A stretch of 64,000 bases of DNA from Alkalihalophilus pseudofirmus (lineage in GTDB: Bacteria > Bacillota > Bacilli > Bacillales > Bacillaceae_D): positions 1,406,001-1,470,000 of the forward strand of contig NZ_CP117835.1 in NCBI RefSeq assembly GCF_029094545.1, written 5' to 3'. Position numbers and translations under genes: made by a program. The notes under the pieces are model-generated. The model ran no database searches, was not told the origin of the DNA, and worked only from the letters and a program-made list of their open reading frames with translations. Of the stretch, positions 3,781-14,307 are shown piece after piece; the first letter of the stretch is position 1; each line of letters begins with the position of its first letter.

Positions 3781-3905
3781 AATTCCACTGTTTTATAAAA
3801 TAAAACCTATTAATTTTTTATTGATAGACAAAATGTTTAAAAAATAGTGTCGAATACGTGGTGATCATGTATAATAAAGATACTTATTAACAATCTCATA
3901 TAGCA

Positions 3906-4162
3906 CATCTAGGTCACTTTGTTATAGAAGTGATAATAGGGAAGTTGGTGTAAATCCAACGCGGTCCCGCCACTGTAAATGCTTGATTGCCTGCACATCC
4001 ACTGTCAATTTGATGGGAAGGGGAAGTAATCGATAAGCATGAGTCAGGAGACCTGCCTAGGTGTTTCGTGTGAAACCTTCGAGGAAAAGGGGAAGCGGTC
4101 TAAAACGACTCTATTTTATCTCATTTCAAAAATGGAGTAAGATTAGTACTACTTTAATGTGT
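3906..4162 (+). ncRNA. Cobalamin (AdoCbl) riboswitch
   Basis: The leader contains the hallmark elements of the cobalamin riboswitch: gaagttggtgtaaatcc, then cggtcccgccactg, and the highly conserved B12 box (agtcaggagacctgcc, 4042-4057). The outer stem pairs ctaggt near 3909 with acctgcctag near 4051. It lies upstream of btuF and the whole corrinoid operon, with a terminator between aptamer and gene. Control is therefore most likely by transcription attenuation when adenosylcobalamin is plentiful. Confidence 0.96.
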
Positions 4163-6329: not shown

Positions 6330-7799
6330 TTGTTAAATATAACTAATTTAACATTAAGCTACGGCGAAAAATGCGTGATTGAAAATGTATCTTTCAACGT
6401 AAATAAAGGAGAGATTTTTGGGATAGTTGGTCCTAATGGCAGTGGTAAAACGACTCTTTTAAAAGCGATTAGCGGCAGTCAGGAGCCCGTGCAGGGGAAG
6501 ATCATTTTAAATGAAAGATCTCTCACAACCTATCATTCAAAGGAATTAGCTAAACTAATGGCAGTCCTGCCTCAGCAATCTGAGACGGCCTTTACGTATT
6601 CTGTATCGGATGTGGTGGCGCTTGGGAGGTATCCCTATCAAAAAGGATGGCTGCAAGGTCTGACGAAAGAGGACCATCAAGTGATCGAGCAAGCTCTTCG
6701 TCAGACCGGAACGGAAGGATTTAAAGACATACCGCTTCAATCATTAAGCGGCGGGGAGCGCCAGCGTGTGCTTTTAGCGAGAGCCTTAGCTCAGGAACCA
6801 GATATCTTATTACTAGATGAGCCAACGAATCACCTTGATATATCCTATCAAATGAGCTTATTGAATTCGCTTAAGCAATGGTCTAGGGATCGCAGCTTAA
6901 CGGTCATTGCCGTTCTCCATGATTTAAATATGGCAAGCTTATACTGTGATCGAGTCTTGTTACTAGATGAAGGTCAGACAATCGCATTAAACGAACCGAG
7001 AAATGTGATGAAAAAAGAGTCTCTGACTGATGTGTATAAAACAGCGCTTGAGTGCGGAGAACATCCGGCTCATCCTTCACCATTGATTACATTTGTTCCT
7101 GAAACAGCTGATCAAGAAAGTCTCTCACCTATCGATCAATTACAGATAGAACAGAATGCACAGTGGATAAAAATAACGAGTCCTTATAGATGGAAGGCGT
7201 TATCATCTGCTGTATTAGGGGCAGGGTTCAGCTGGCATAATACGTTTGTTAATCGTCATGTGCATAAAGATTATCAGTGTGATGATGTCATTTCCGAATT
7301 TAGACATTACCTTACTGAACGTGAAGTGAGCGGTGAAGATGTGATGGGCATGATGACCGCGGCAATGTTAGAAGATGGAGTTATATTACGTGTGAATGAA
7401 AATGGATTAAATATGTTAGTCATGGTGACAGCAGGTACCTCAAATGCCGTCGATGCGACAAGAGCTTTTTCTCACCCGCAGATTGAAAGTAAGGTAGGTA
7501 CAATAAATACTTGGGTATTTGTGGAAGGGAAGATGCCTGAGTCTGCATACGTTCAAGCGTTAATGACGGTAACGGAAGCTAAAAGTAAAGCGATGTTTGA
7601 TGAAGGGATTAAAGATGAAGTCACCCAAACGATTGCGACCGGAACGTCTACTGACAGTGTAATGATTGCAGCTAGTCAGGAAGGGGAGGAATTTCCATAT
7701 GCCGGGACCATTACTCCAGTTGGAAAGTTAATGGCTAAATTGGTATATGAAGCTACAAGAGAGGCGATTGTTAATAACAAAAAGAGGCGGGGGATATGA
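6330..7799 (+). CDS. btuD-cbiZ: Fusion of B12 ABC transporter ATPase (BtuD) and adenosylcobinamide amidohydrolase (CbiZ)
   Basis: 489 residues with two domains. Residues 1-255 are an ABC ATPase: Walker A GPNGSGKTT (34-42), Q-loop near PQQ 81-83, signature LSGGERQ (139-145), Walker B ILLLDE with D163-E164, and H-loop in VLHDLN. Residues about 285-485 match CbiZ (VTAGTSNAVDA, TVTEAKSKAMFDEGIKD, ATGTSTDSVMIA), which cuts the aminopropanol arm from (pseudo)cobalamin or adenosylcobinamide to give adenosylcobyric acid. The TTG start at 6330 follows a good GGAGG site. Uptake energy and the first remodelling step are thus on one polypeptide. Such fusions are known in some Bacillaceae; activity here is inferred from the domains. 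Confidence 0.92.
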   Translation: MLNITNLTLSYGEKCVIENVSFNVNKGEIFGIVGPNGSGKTTLLKAISGSQEPVQGKIILNERSLTTYHSKELAKLMAVLPQQSETAFTYSVSDVVALGRYPYQKGWLQGLTKEDHQVIEQALRQTGTEGFKDIPLQSLSGGERQRVLLARALAQEPDILLLDEPTNHLDISYQMSLLNSLKQWSRDRSLTVIAVLHDLNMASLYCDRVLLLDEGQTIALNEPRNVMKKESLTDVYKTALECGEHPAHPSPLITFVPETADQESLSPIDQLQIEQNAQWIKITSPYRWKALSSAVLGAGFSWHNTFVNRHVHKDYQCDDVISEFRHYLTEREVSGEDVMGMMTAAMLEDGVILRVNENGLNMLVMVTAGTSNAVDATRAFSHPQIESKVGTINTWVFVEGKMPESAYVQALMTVTEAKSKAMFDEGIKDEVTQTIATGTSTDSVMIAASQEGEEFPYAGTITPVGKLMAKLVYEATREAIVNNKKRRGI

Positions 7800-8755
7800 T
7801 TTTAAATCATTTGTTGGCTCTAACTCTTGCAGTGATCATTGATCGTCTGATCGGCGACCCAAAATGGCTGCCGCACCCTGTCGTTGGGATGGGGAAAATC
7901 ATCTCCTTCTTTGAAAAAAGATTGAACAAAGGAAGCCAACGTCGTGTTAAAGGGTTTATGATGATGCTTATTTTACTCATTATCAGCGGCGGTGTCCTCT
8001 TTATCATCGTTTATACTGCCTATTCCATTCATACCATGTTAGGAATTATGGTAGAGGCATGGTTTATTTCAACGACCATAGCTGCAAAAGGGTTAAAGCA
8101 AGCTGCGCTTGATGTATGGCAGCCTCTTATGAAAAATGACGTAATAGGAGCAAGGAAGTATTTGTCTTATATCGTAGGCCGTGATACTACGAATTTGAAG
8201 GAAGAAGAGATTACAAGAGCAACCATTGAAACGGTATCAGAAAATACGAGTGATGGGATTACTGCACCTTTATTTTATGCCCTGATTGGAGGTGCTCCCC
8301 TTGCTATGATTTACAGAGCCGTTAATACAGGCGATTCAATGGTAGGGTATAAAAATGAGAGATATTGTGAGTTTGGGTATGCAGCGGCGAAATTGGATGA
8401 TCTTTTTAATTTGATTCCAAGCAGACTGACTGGATTAATGATGATTATGTTTAATCGTCCTGCGCTAAAACGCAGACGAACAGAGTGTTTCAATGTTCTC
8501 TTAAGAGATGCGAAGAAGCACCCGAGCCCAAATAGCGGATGGGGAGAAGCAGCAGCTGCGACACTAATGGGGATCCAGCTCGGCGGGAGAAATGTATATG
8601 GCGGACAAGTGTCAGAGCGAGCTAGAATGGGAGACTCATTAATTAAACTTCTTCCAGAACACATACTTGCTGCTAATCGCTTGATGATACGCACAGTGTT
8701 CGGATTCACAATTTTATTATGGATGATTGGGGGTATGTGGTATGTCCTTACCTGA
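7796..8755 (+). CDS. cbiB: Adenosylcobinamide-phosphate synthase CbiB
   Basis: 319 residues, a polytopic membrane protein of the CbiB/CobD(Pseudomonas) family. Conserved blocks: LALTLAVIIDRLIGDPKWLPHPVVGMGK at the N-terminus, YIVGRDTTNL, ATIETVSENTSDGITAPLFYA, and YRAVNTGDSMVGYKNERY in the middle. It joins adenosylcobyric acid to aminopropanol phosphate, re-forming adenosylcobinamide phosphate from the product of CbiZ. The ATG overlaps the stop of btuD-cbiZ by four bases (ATGA), so the two are translationally coupled. Length matches the family. Confidence 0.95.
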   Translation: MILNHLLALTLAVIIDRLIGDPKWLPHPVVGMGKIISFFEKRLNKGSQRRVKGFMMMLILLIISGGVLFIIVYTAYSIHTMLGIMVEAWFISTTIAAKGLKQAALDVWQPLMKNDVIGARKYLSYIVGRDTTNLKEEEITRATIETVSENTSDGITAPLFYALIGGAPLAMIYRAVNTGDSMVGYKNERYCEFGYAAAKLDDLFNLIPSRLTGLMMIMFNRPALKRRRTECFNVLLRDAKKHPSPNSGWGEAAAATLMGIQLGGRNVYGGQVSERARMGDSLIKLLPEHILAANRLMIRTVFGFTILLWMIGGMWYVLT

Positions 8756-9818
8756 CCACGGCGCCAACCCTAAGATTTTTACGAAAGCATTAGGAGTGGC
8801 TTATGAAGAAGGCTCAATCGATTTTAGTGTAAACACGAACCCTTTAGGTATAAGCAATTATGCGAACCTTACTCAAAGTGATCTTAAAGACGCAATAAGT
8901 GCTTATCCAGAACCTCATGCTGAACAATTAACAGAAACTCTAGCGAAGCATCTAAAGGTTGATAAGAGCAGGCTGTTAGCAGGAAACGGAGCGGCAGAAT
9001 TAATCTTTCATTTGGCCCATCTTTATCAAGGGAAAAAGGTGCTGTTGATAGAACCTGCGTTCAGTGAATATAGAGATGCATGTGAGGCTAATGGCTGTGA
9101 AATGGAATCGATCGTGTTAGAGGACCCCTGGAAAATAGATCTCAGACAATTAGAGGGGCGTCTAAATGAGGTTGACCTAATGTTTCTATGTGCGCCTAAT
9201 AATCCGACAGGAACCACATACGAGATAGAAGAAATCCGAGCAATCCTCAACTTGGCCGCACAACATAACACGATGGTTGTAATAGATGAAGCATTTTATG
9301 ATTTCCAGGAGAGTAAGCAAACCATCATAAAGGAAATTGAACAATGTAATCATTTAATCATTTTACGATCGATGACTAAAATGTATGGAATTGCAGGTGT
9401 ACGCCTCGGTTATATGGCTGCGTCTCCTTCAATCATCCAACAAATAAGAAATATTCAGCCGCCTTGGAGTGTGAACGGGCTGGCTCAGCGAATCGGGCTT
9501 AACCTCCTGCAGGATTCATTATTTGTAAATGAAACAGCTGCATACATAAAAAAAGAAAGGCTGCAGATGATGACAGAGCTTCGGAGAATGGACTTTTGCG
9601 TGTCTGATTCTGTCGTTAATTTTTACTTGCTTAGTGAAAAAGATAAGCGGGATCTTAGACCGCTTATGATCTTTTTAATTGAACATAAAATTATTCCTAG
9701 ACATACGTACTCTTTTAATGGGTTGAATGGACGTTATTTAAGGCTAGCTGTCAAAACGAGGGAGGAAAATGCAGCTCTCTTATCTGTGTTAAAAAAATGG
9801 CGGGATCAATCATGCTAA
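8742..9818 (+). CDS. cobD: Threonine-phosphate decarboxylase (CobD-type, PLP)
   Basis: 358 residues when started at ATG 8742, which has a G-rich Shine-Dalgarno at 7-base spacing; a TTG at 8727 is a poorer candidate. It is a class I/II PLP aminotransferase-fold enzyme: starts LPDHGANP, CAPNNPTG, DEAFYDF, and the Schiff-base lysine in SMTKMYGIAGVRLG (K213). The substrate is L-threonine O-3-phosphate, giving aminopropanol phosphate for CbiB just upstream. The first 14 bases overlap cbiB. A histidinol-phosphate aminotransferase is the close alternative, but the operon context settles it. Confidence 0.9.
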   Translation: MSLPDHGANPKIFTKALGVAYEEGSIDFSVNTNPLGISNYANLTQSDLKDAISAYPEPHAEQLTETLAKHLKVDKSRLLAGNGAAELIFHLAHLYQGKKVLLIEPAFSEYRDACEANGCEMESIVLEDPWKIDLRQLEGRLNEVDLMFLCAPNNPTGTTYEIEEIRAILNLAAQHNTMVVIDEAFYDFQESKQTIIKEIEQCNHLIILRSMTKMYGIAGVRLGYMAASPSIIQQIRNIQPPWSVNGLAQRIGLNLLQDSLFVNETAAYIKKERLQMMTELRRMDFCVSDSVVNFYLLSEKDKRDLRPLMIFLIEHKIIPRHTYSFNGLNGRYLRLAVKTREENAALLSVLKKWRDQSC

Positions 9819-10411
9819 CCTTTATAACAGGCGGAGTAAGAAGCGGAAAGAGTTCTTATGCGGAAAGACGTGCAGTAGATCTGTTCTATAAGGAGCTTTA
9901 TCGAGTCAAACTGTTTAACAAAGAAAAGGGAGCATTGTATTATCTTGCAACCGGCCTGGCAGAGGATGATGAAATGAAGCAAAGAGTGGAAAAACATCAG
10001 CTTCAGCGGAGTAAAACATCCCCGCACTGGAGGGTGATTGAACAGAGTACAAATGTTGCAGAGAAGCTGCCGTTATTTAAACAAACAGATGTTATTTTGA
10101 TTGATTGTTTAACCACTTTACTGACTAACGAATTATTCAACGATTGGCAGGATGAACCGGATAAATGGAAGGATGCTTTCTACCGGAAAAAAATAGAAAC
10201 CAAGCTAAAATCGTTTATCACTCATTTAGCTAGAGGAGAATTCACGGCTGTTCTAGTGTCCAATGAGGTAAGTCATGAGCATTTTTTTGATGAATTACCT
10301 CTCGTTTATGCAAAGCTCTTAGGCACCTTGCACCAGCATGCAGTGTTCGAGTCAGATGAAGCGGTTCTAGTAGAGGCTGGAATTCCAATTGTAAAGAAAG
10401 GCAGGGAGTGA
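9812..10411 (+). CDS. cobU: Adenosylcobinamide kinase/guanylyltransferase (CobU family)
   Basis: 199 residues from ATG 9812 (an upstream ATG at 9797 lacks a ribosome binding site). CobU fold with P-loop ITGGVRSGKSSYAE (G7-S15), LIDCLTTLLTNELF and VSNEVSHEHFFDELP. It activates adenosylcobinamide (phosphate) to adenosylcobinamide-GDP. The region after VSNEV deviates from the usual G-IVP...R-RDLxG block of CobU, a point of interest because a second CobU-like gene at 13250 carries that block. It overlaps cobD by seven bases. Confidence 0.88.
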   Translation: MLTFITGGVRSGKSSYAERRAVDLFYKELYRVKLFNKEKGALYYLATGLAEDDEMKQRVEKHQLQRSKTSPHWRVIEQSTNVAEKLPLFKQTDVILIDCLTTLLTNELFNDWQDEPDKWKDAFYRKKIETKLKSFITHLARGEFTAVLVSNEVSHEHFFDELPLVYAKLLGTLHQHAVFESDEAVLVEAGIPIVKKGRE

Positions 10412-11922: not shown

Positions 11923-12708
11923 ATGGAATCAATTAAAAATCTAGTAAAAGGTGCTTTGTTAGCTTTTCAATTACTAACTACCATACCTATACCTATGCAG
12001 CTTGGCTGGAATGAGAGGCTGGCTCGAATCTCAGTCTGTTTTTATCCTTTAACAGGGCTTGTCTTAGGGGGGTTACTAGGAGGACAGGCTTATCTGTTAG
12101 TCCAATACACCAATTTGTCATCCCTGATTATTGCAGCATGGCTGATGACATTTACGTGTATCTATTCAGGAGCTCTGCACCTTGATGGGTGGGCAGATTT
12201 CAGTGATGCTGTATTTTCTAGACAGTCTATAGATCGCAAGCTTGAAATCATGAAGGATTCAAGAGTTGGAGCATTTGGGGTCATTTCCTTGCTCTTTTTA
12301 TTAGGATGGAGATTTTTATTCATTTATGAAGTCATCGAAGCTTCATTATCTGTCTATTGGCTGATTCTTATTCCGTTTTTAACACGTATCATCATGGGCA
12401 GTCAGATATTACTTGGTTCATTTGCCAGAAATAATGGAATGGCAGCAGCTCTAAAGCCTGCTCAAACGACGTCAGTGAAGCTTGTATTTTTCAGCTGGGT
12501 GACAGCTGCACTTATAGCTTTTTTGATCCTTGATTTCACTTCGGTTTGGTTAATATTAGTGGCTCTTCTCTTTTTGATAGGCTGGTTAAGGTTCAGCTAT
12601 AAACAAATTAATGGAATCACAGGTGATACGATTGGCGCGGGAACAGAAGGGAGTGAAACATTTTTGTGGGCGGTACTGTTTGTGTTGTACTCATTCGGCA
12701 TGGTTTAA
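11923..12708 (+). CDS. cobS: Adenosylcobinamide-GDP ribazoletransferase (cobalamin synthase)
   Basis: 261 residues with about six membrane helices. Family blocks: LLTTIPIP near the start, FYPLTGLVLGGLLG, and the acidic metal-binding motif LHLDGWADFSDAVF near residues 85-100, followed by ...MKDSRVGAFGVISL. It joins adenosylcobinamide-GDP to alpha-ribazole (phosphate), completing the nucleotide loop at the membrane. It starts one base after cobQ and overlaps cobC. Confidence 0.95.
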   Translation: MESIKNLVKGALLAFQLLTTIPIPMQLGWNERLARISVCFYPLTGLVLGGLLGGQAYLLVQYTNLSSLIIAAWLMTFTCIYSGALHLDGWADFSDAVFSRQSIDRKLEIMKDSRVGAFGVISLLFLLGWRFLFIYEVIEASLSVYWLILIPFLTRIIMGSQILLGSFARNNGMAAALKPAQTTSVKLVFFSWVTAALIAFLILDFTSVWLILVALLFLIGWLRFSYKQINGITGDTIGAGTEGSETFLWAVLFVLYSFGMV

Positions 12709-13298
12709 CCAGCTATAACAAGGAAAAAAGGTATTTAGGCCACACGAATCTATCCCTTCTTGAAAAAGAACGGTCGCGATTAGACTCCCTCAAGTCATGG
12801 TGTGAGAAGATGAAGCTGGATCAACTCTATTCCAGTGATTTAACCAGATGTATTGAGACGTCTTCTCTTTTATTTCCCGACGAAAACCCTGTCCTGATGT
12901 CTTCTCTAAGAGAGTATGACTTCGGGGATTGGGAAGGGAAGCAGTATAGAGATTTAGCTGATTTACCTCATTATCAGAACTGGATTGCGAATCCTCGAAC
13001 CATTACTCCTCCTAATGGGGAGTGTTTTCAAGATTTTACGAATCGAATTGAACAAGGTTTTAATCAATTGTTAAACGACGCATCTAGGAATAAGCATTCT
13101 ACTGTTGTGTGTGTGACGCATGGCGGTGTAATCAGGTATTTATTGAGTGAATATGCACCGAATTTAATGCCGTTTAATGAGTGGACTGCTGATATAGGAA
13201 AAGCATACAAGCTAACAGGAGATATCGTAGACGTTAGGAGGGGACAACGATTCAGTTTATTACAGGTAGTGCCTTCTGTGGTAAAAACAAATGGGTGA
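12666..13298 (+). CDS. cobC: Alpha-ribazole phosphatase (histidine phosphatase family)
   Basis: 210 residues. Phosphoglycerate-mutase-like fold with the catalytic LIRHGLT (H12), SSDLTRCIET, the acid in REYDFGDWEG and the second histidine in VCVTHGG. It removes the phosphate from alpha-ribazole phosphate or adenosylcobalamin phosphate. The GTG start at 12666 lies 43 bases inside cobS; no downstream start would keep the RHG motif, so the overlap is real. The activity is inferred from family and operon. Confidence 0.88.
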   Translation: MGGTVCVVLIRHGLTSYNKEKRYLGHTNLSLLEKERSRLDSLKSWCEKMKLDQLYSSDLTRCIETSSLLFPDENPVLMSSLREYDFGDWEGKQYRDLADLPHYQNWIANPRTITPPNGECFQDFTNRIEQGFNQLLNDASRNKHSTVVCVTHGGVIRYLLSEYAPNLMPFNEWTADIGKAYKLTGDIVDVRRGQRFSLLQVVPSVVKTNG

Positions 13299-13693
13299 AA
13301 ACGCAAATTTCCCATATCGAAGCGAGCGAATATTCAGAGATCACATGGTATAATGGATACACTAGCAATATAGCGGGTGAAGATATAATCCGAAGTGAAG
13401 GCATTTCTATTATCTTCGGGCTTGAACACGTGATTGAACAGGTTTTAGAGCAAGATGTAGATCATTCAAGAGGTCTGTTTAGACAATGGCTTCAAAGATT
13501 AATAGAATGGGAAAACAGCTCACATCAAAACAAGCTTTATCTTATTGGCTGTGATATCGGAAAAGGAATTGTGCCAATTGATAGCAGACATAGAAGTTTG
13601 AGAGATCTTGTTGGGTGGTGTTATCAGGATATTGTAGAAAGAGCAGATCGTGTTGATGTTATTTGGTATGGCATCAATCAGCGGCTAAAATAA
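13250..13693 (+). CDS. Short CobU-like protein with non-canonical ATT start
   Basis: 147 residues if started at ATT 13250. The reading frame is open from a TAG at 13235. Before the first standard start (GTG 13295) it encodes QFITGSAFCGKNKWV, a CobU-type P-loop (GxxxxGK, with Asn where Ser/Thr is usual). AGGAGGGG (13236-13243) sits six bases before the ATT, an ideal Shine-Dalgarno distance; ACG 13247 is the only close rival. The C-terminal half has the CobU-like GCDIGKGIVP...HRSLRDLVGW block. It overlaps cobC by 49 bases. Possibly an adenosylcobinamide-processing paralogue or subunit; its activity is unknown. Confidence 0.8.
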   Translation: MQFITGSAFCGKNKWVKTQISHIEASEYSEITWYNGYTSNIAGEDIIRSEGISIIFGLEHVIEQVLEQDVDHSRGLFRQWLQRLIEWENSSHQNKLYLIGCDIGKGIVPIDSRHRSLRDLVGWCYQDIVERADRVDVIWYGINQRLK

Positions 13694-13707: not shown

Positions 13708-14307
13708 ATGAAACTTTATACGAGAACTGGTGATGAAGGAAAAACAAGTGTGATTGGCGGCAGACTATTTAAGGATGATATAAGAGTTGAAGCATACGGT
13801 ACAACGGATGAATTAAACAGTTTTATCGGCCAGGCTGTTACTCAGCTTGACCAAGAGCTTTTTGCTGATATAGTAGGAGAACTTGAAAAAATTCAGCATG
13901 AGCTATTTGATTGCGGCGGGGATCTTGCGATGGTGAAAGTAAGCGACGATCGACCATATAAAGCTAAGCAAGAGATTGTTGATTTTCTAGAAGAGAGAAT
14001 TGATGAGTATATTAAAGAAGCCCCAGAGCTTGAAAGGTTCATTTTACCAGGAGGCTCACTTGCTGCAGCGACACTGCATATATGCAGAACAGTCACAAGA
14101 AGAGCCGAACGATTAACGACAAGACTGCAGCAAGAATCGCAGACAAACCCGATCGTTTTAAAGTATTTAAACCGCTTGTCTGATTATTTCTTTGCAGTTG
14201 CAAGAGTGGTCAATGCACGTCTTAATGTTCGTGATGTAGAGTACGAACGTAGTGCGCTCGTTTTTCGCAACGGAAAACGAAAAGAAGATAAGAGAGATAC
14301 TAAGTAA
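13708..14307 (+). CDS. PduO-type ATP:cob(I)alamin adenosyltransferase
   Basis: 199 residues from ATG 13708, which follows a strong AGAGGAGG site; in-frame starts further upstream lack one. It is diagnostic from the N-terminal MKLYTRTGDEGKTSVIGG and the helical core with YGTTDELNSFIGQA, FDCGGDLA, LPGGS and ICRTVTRRAERL. It transfers the adenosyl group of ATP to cob(I)alamin, making the AdoCbl that the upstream riboswitch senses. It is the last gene of the corrinoid operon, followed by a terminator at 14315. Confidence 0.94.
   Translation: MKLYTRTGDEGKTSVIGGRLFKDDIRVEAYGTTDELNSFIGQAVTQLDQELFADIVGELEKIQHELFDCGGDLAMVKVSDDRPYKAKQEIVDFLEERIDEYIKEAPELERFILPGGSLAAATLHICRTVTRRAERLTTRLQQESQTNPIVLKYLNRLSDYFFAVARVVNARLNVRDVEYERSALVFRNGKRKEDKRDTK

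Follow-up and report, generated by a model that had tools for sequence, protein, structure and literature searches.

A cobU-like gene that probably starts at a conserved AUU codon inside cobC in Alkalihalophilus pseudofirmus and its relatives

Introduction

Few AUU start codons that are held by selection are known in bacteria. According to the available excerpt of PMC6097659, the infC gene of Bacillus subtilis starts with ATT, and in the accessible portion of PMC1805508, infC is handled as a gene with an ATT start behind a strong Shine-Dalgarno sequence. A second case is cvfC1 of Staphylococcus aureus, for which the available text of PMC13009471 reports an AUU start identified by ribosome profiling and kept among staphylococci, together with an extended Shine-Dalgarno sequence. 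The same text describes an AUA start for ccpN in S. aureus and also in B. subtilis, and reporters with such starts that gave about 10% of the output of AUG in poor medium.

Here, we describe a gene for a CobU-like protein that very likely starts at an AUU codon under selection. It lies in a stretch of 64,000 nucleotides, referred to as the window, that comprises positions 1406001–1470000 of the 4.24 Mb Alkalihalophilus pseudofirmus genome (2 contigs). All coordinates below are those of the window, and all features are on its + strand. The gene resembles infC of Escherichia coli and B. subtilis in that AUU would be used across species behind a Shine-Dalgarno sequence. However, the infC product is the factor that discriminates against AUU, whereas the CobU-like gene is one of vitamin B12 synthesis, with a start located inside another gene. 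With cvfC1 and ccpN it shares a non-canonical start across species; the extended Shine-Dalgarno sequence and the lowered output are properties of those two genes (PMC13009471, available text). Their starts were shown by experiment, whereas the CobU-like AUU is predicted from sequence, and the available text of PMC13009471 does not describe them as lying inside another coding frame. Conserved AUU starts are already known (infC, cvfC1); neither this gene nor its clade nor the overlap was met in searches of open-access papers on AUU or ATT initiation, on Bacillus CobU and on the structure of CobU.

The CobU-like gene is metabolic, and its 133 relatives with an ATG, GTG, TTG or CTG start (collectively NTG) provide a comparison in which the change to AUU is traceable and testable. 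Gene finders that accept only NTG starts would trim 15 residues, including the first strand, from the protein. The locus also raises a second question, namely whether CobU is a two-protein enzyme in these bacteria.

Results and Discussion

The Operon and the Start Region

A cobalamin riboswitch (3894–4074; RF00174, 116.4 bits against a gathering score of 31.5) lies upstream of a run of cobalamin genes. The same-strand order after the riboswitch is btuF-, btuC- and btuD-like, cbiB- and cobD-like, cobU, cobQ- and cobS-like, cobC, the CobU-like gene and pduO, where all names other than cobU, cobC and pduO were assigned by reading of the proteins. The cobC gene (12666–13298) encodes an alpha-ribazole phosphatase-like protein that scores 128.2 bits with His_Phos_1 (cut-off 21.7) and 133 bits with TIGR03162, under the cut-off of 162.9. 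The PduO-type cobalamin adenosyltransferase gene is found at 13708–14307 (TIGR00636, 202.6 bits, cut-off 108.45). Provided that the ORF calls, made mechanically from the first start, are correct, overlapping junctions recur in the operon: the cobD-like TTG start lies inside the cbiB-like gene (8727–8755), and the cobC GTG start lies inside the cobS-like gene (12666–12708). The run also encodes an ABC-type ATPase (6330–7799) with a C-terminal extension that, by eye, resembles the CbiZ amidohydrolase.

The original prediction placed the start of the CobU-like gene at an ATT codon, in a frame that is devoid of conventional starts for some distance downstream. From 13235 to 13295, the codons read TAG GAG GGG ACA ACG ATT CAG TTT ATT ACA GGT AGT GCC TTC TGT GGT AAA AAC AAA TGG GTG. 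This agrees with the prediction in every detail: there is no in-frame ATG, GTG, TTG or CTG between the TAG (13235–13237) and the GTG (13295–13297), the Shine-Dalgarno sequence AGGAGGGG occupies 13236–13243, an ACG stands at 13247, the ATT (13250–13252) follows AGGAGGGG at a distance of six bases, and the 49 bases up to the end of cobC at 13298 are common to cobC and the CobU-like gene. In the cobC frame, AGGAGGGG encodes Arg-Arg-Gly. The computed duplex with the 3′ end of the 16S rRNA is −12.2 kcal/mol at ATT 13250, as opposed to −4.5 kcal/mol at GTG 13295; the AUU is preceded by a strong Shine-Dalgarno sequence at a suitable spacing.

GGAG is found at most 22 bases upstream of the start in all 14 loci with ATT that are introduced below. 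The computed Shine-Dalgarno pairing is equally strong at ATT loci and NTG loci (p 0.76). A stronger Shine-Dalgarno sequence that would compensate for ATT is therefore not apparent, and we rejected this idea. A special RNA fold around the start was likewise rejected, as its stability was no better than that of shuffles (z 0.18).

Conservation and Origin of the ATT Codon

To place the ATT codon among its homologues, we searched for the CobU-like gene, which was found in 18 of 41 genomes of the family and in 206 of 397 genomes of the order. A total of 171 loci were read, consisting of the 18 family loci, 50 named loci, 23 more from the order search and 80 drawn from the list of that search, with at most four fetched per genus. 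This covers 110 of the 206 order matches; the other 96 were left out, save any that entered as named loci. Over the interval from −40 to the stop, the 171 loci amount to 147 different sequences. At the position homologous to ATT 13250, ATG stands in 91 of these, GTG in 25, TTG in 16, ATT in 14 and CTG in one; all 147 thus have NTG or ATT there, which is more than chance would give. The aligned relatives thus have a conventional start at the ATT position, followed by a segment that matches QFITGS, which supports the AUU start that had been predicted; homologues without QFITGS and with a start no earlier than GTG 13295, which would have pointed the other way, did not emerge from the comparison. 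The single CTG (L105, genome G387) is preceded by AGGAGGGG.

The 14 loci with ATT at the homologous start position represent several species and are confined to the family of the window itself (Alkalihalophilus, Halalkalibacter and kin). The nearest relative, G002, belongs to the same species (96% protein identity). As the 14 ATT loci were found in separate genomes, all in one family, we rejected a sequencing error. The 18 family loci comprise these 14, one with GTG (G026) and three with ATG, the latter being divergent copies with 33–35% identity. This means that ATT is not indispensable in the family. Two of the ATT loci (L028 and L031) have an in-frame ATG or GTG further upstream.

Between pairs of the 14 ATT loci, the encoded proteins are 50% identical in the median, and the four-fold degenerate third bases of shared residues have a median identity of 0.35. 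In the 31 columns where the 14 loci share a degenerate residue, a single codon is used throughout at the start only, although these sequences are related and the codon conservation does not represent 14 independent draws. The internal Ile codons of the same genes are ATT (100), ATC (34) and ATA (28), so an ordinary Ile at the start position would be expected to vary. In infC, used as a positive control, ATT precedes AGY-AAR-GAY in 34 of 34 loci read (34 of the 41 family genomes). We are confident that the gene at 13250–13693 (147 codons from AUU, plus the stop) would be translated from AUU, with initiation at that codon itself. NTG probably changed to ATT within the family, where ATT has been kept since.

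In a quick tree of all 147 rows, 13 of the 14 rows with ATT form a single clade (SH-aLRT 89). In a careful tree of 42 chosen rows, from which the three divergent ATG family members were omitted, the main ATT clade has a support of 95/93, with L025 (Halalkalibacterium ligniniphilum) outside. Two start-codon changes were counted on each of two trees, the careful one included, and a single change was needed in 0% of 200 bootstrap trees. A tree that forces all 14 ATT loci together was not rejected (p-AU 0.343), and a single ATT origin is neither shown nor rejected. The direction of change was probably from NTG to ATT: an ancestral NTG start would have given way to ATT on one or two occasions within the Alkalihalophilus/Halalkalibacter family.

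The Overlap with cobC and the Use of AUU

In the cobC frame, selection acts on the overlap between the two genes. Conservation in this frame is 0.574 within the overlap, compared with 0.443 (sd 0.009) that is explained by the CobU-like frame, and stops inside the overlap occur in the cobC frame of 3 of 133 loci versus 53 expected. The cobC stop lies 46–58 bases downstream of the start in the ATT loci. Codon 196 of cobC (TTC, Phe; 13251–13253) consists of the second and third bases of the start codon and the next base. Residue 196 is Phe in 14 of 14 ATT loci, whereas in the 133 NTG loci it is Cys in 128 and Trp in 4 (one was not read). Cys or Trp is forced by NTG in these loci, as the sole other choice is a stop.

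With the strong AGGAGGGG as a guide, AUU would be read by the usual initiator tRNA and yield fMet; initiation there is likely to proceed at a low rate and to be sensitive to IF3, as at infC. Output from the AUU may be low and subject to control by IF3. The AUU is probably held by two pressures, namely a low output of the subunit, which is tolerated or needed, and the overlapping cobC frame, in which ATT would place Phe rather than Cys beside the final beta strand. Either of the two may dominate.

Another reading, which we consider rather unlikely, is that AUU has been kept for Phe 196 of cobC and not for regulation, since a return to ATG would yield Cys 196. The selection in the cobC frame and the division between Phe at all ATT loci and Cys or Trp at 132 of the 133 NTG loci agree with this, as does the predicted structure, in which residue 196 adjoins strand 198–202 (block pLDDT 96). 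Outside the order, the aligned residue in 27 cobC-like loci is mostly Leu (17), with Phe in 3, Ile in 2, Val, Glu, Ala and Cys in one each and one gap, although the cobC tail aligns poorly there and these residues are only a hint. However, Cys is tolerated in 128 of the 133 NTG loci, and this reading does not account for the invariant A at the first position of the ATT, which is the third base of a codon in cobC.

It is improbable that the AUU is reached by ribosomes that end cobC at 13296–13298, step back and re-initiate. This would suit the arrangement of the frames, as the upstream frame taken as cobC is open, from up to 400 bases before the start to 37 after it, in 137 of the 147 loci, and the first cobC-frame stop begins at +46 in 102, at +64 in 22 and at +49 in 11 of them. 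However, the strong Shine-Dalgarno sequence permits direct initiation, and a step back of at least 46 bases is long for re-initiation. In two loci (L096 and L097, from genomes G163 and G102), cobC-frame stops lie upstream, and the CobU-like gene is possibly a relic there or has another role.

A start at GTG 13295, with the upstream segment serving as cobC coding sequence only, is very improbable. This GTG is the earliest conventional codon in the frame, but codon 16, which it occupies, reads GTG at just 3 of the 14 loci with ATT, where the first downstream NTG is scattered over codons 16 to 55, and we rejected it as a start for this lack of conservation. Its Shine-Dalgarno sequence is weak, as given above, and the NTG start of the relatives lies 15 codons before it. 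The confident structure model has a strand (residues 2–6) and a helix (9–21) at the N-terminus; a protein starting at the GTG would lose the first strand of the fold and half of the helix.

A −1 ribosomal frameshift from cobC, by which the ATT would become an internal codon of a CobC-CobU fusion, is also highly improbable. Over the stretch read, no cobC-frame stop interrupts the start region in any of the 14 ATT loci, and the frames overlap by 49–61 bases, but the NTG at exactly the ATT position in 133 relatives speaks against a frameshift, which we rejected on this ground. Moreover, the ATT need not be invariant under frameshifting, and no shared slippery run upstream of the FITGG codons was seen in the loci inspected by eye. 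A start at ACG 13247, a near-cognate codon three bases closer to the Shine-Dalgarno sequence, has next to no probability and was rejected, since the codon before the invariant ATT is ACG in just 6 of the 14 loci (AAC 4, GCG 2, GCC 1, AAG 1).

The CobU-like Protein and the Main CobU

With the start at AUU, the CobU-like protein would open with M-Q-F-I-T-G, residues that make up the initial strand and loop of a fold of the CobU type. The original prediction saw a CobU-type P-loop in this segment, and this stands in part. The segment matches that of the relatives, but the loop TGSAFCGKN (13262–13288), which is encoded solely with a start upstream of it, lacks the Ser or Thr after GK of a standard Walker A (GxxxxGK[ST]). 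Among the 147 loci, the residue following GK is R in 62, S in 26, K in 23, A in 14, N in 13, G in 4, T in 3 and H in 2, so that GK[ST] is present in 29; in the ATT loci it is N in 13 and S in one. The Walker B Asp in D[CS]x[TE] is found in 0 of 147 CobU-like loci. As the loop is degenerate, nucleotide binding by the CobU-like protein is doubtful.

The C-terminal part is conserved. The CobU motif GKGIVP..R..RD..G...Q (13559–13627), which fits the pattern GxGIVP..R..RD..G, has G106, V108, P109, R115, R118, G122 and Q126 in 147 of 147 loci and D119 in 146. The structure model predicts a CobU fold. The protein narrowly passes the gathering score of Pfam CobU (PF02283; 29.2 versus 27) and falls below the cut-off of the curated model NF004469 (34.7 bits versus 161). 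Compared with CobU, the bifunctional adenosylcobinamide kinase/guanylyltransferase described by these two models, it is shorter, has GKN in place of GK[ST] and is without the Walker B D[CS]x[TE].

The main CobU of the operon (9797–10411) keeps the Walker A GKS and DCLT, and the C-terminal R..RD..G is absent. We parsed 38 main CobU proteins, namely that of the window, 36 from other paired genomes and that of G133. R..RD..G occurs in 0 of 38; all 38 contain D[CS]x[TE] as well as a loosely defined H..R pattern. Because a GG..GKS pattern served to pick the main CobU, Walker A cannot be counted independently here, and this pattern missed 3 of 41: in G061 and G137, GKS, DC.T and R..RD..G are all present, and in G144 the protein has GKN and is without R..RD..G. 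R..RD..G is also absent from the main CobU of another 15 genomes of the family, without exception (two of them judged by eye).

CobU matches were found in 76 of 150 order genomes, all of which also match in the CobU-like search. For 73 of the 76, the CobU-like match is at E 1.1e-13 or better (part of the 73 were read in DNA); in G061, G133 and G137, it ranges from E 1.2e-5 to 8.6e-10 and was taken as CobU itself. These three are the only ones of the 150 genomes with a CobU over the curated cut-off. The G133 protein is awkward, as it passes the cut-off, yet has R..QD instead of R..RD.

CobU forms trimers, and its His46 is guanylylated. The complementary losses of motifs in the main CobU and the CobU-like paralogue of the genomes read suggest that the two are perhaps one enzyme made of two proteins, of which the main CobU would retain the nucleotide-binding motifs and the small CobU-like protein the C-terminal motif; the two may meet physically. 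We tentatively propose, without considering it the likelier outcome, that in these Bacillus-like bacteria a bifunctional CobU has given rise to two paralogues, each degenerate where the other is intact, which function only in combination, and that in one family the AUU sets the subunit ratio and is locked by the cobC frame. Against such a pair, G102 and G163 have a CobU-like gene and no match to a main CobU. The family genomes G015, G021 and G022 have neither a CobU-like gene nor a CobU match. One further genome, G135, contains two CobU-like genes about 5 kb apart (G135:C7:371340 and G135:C7:376251).
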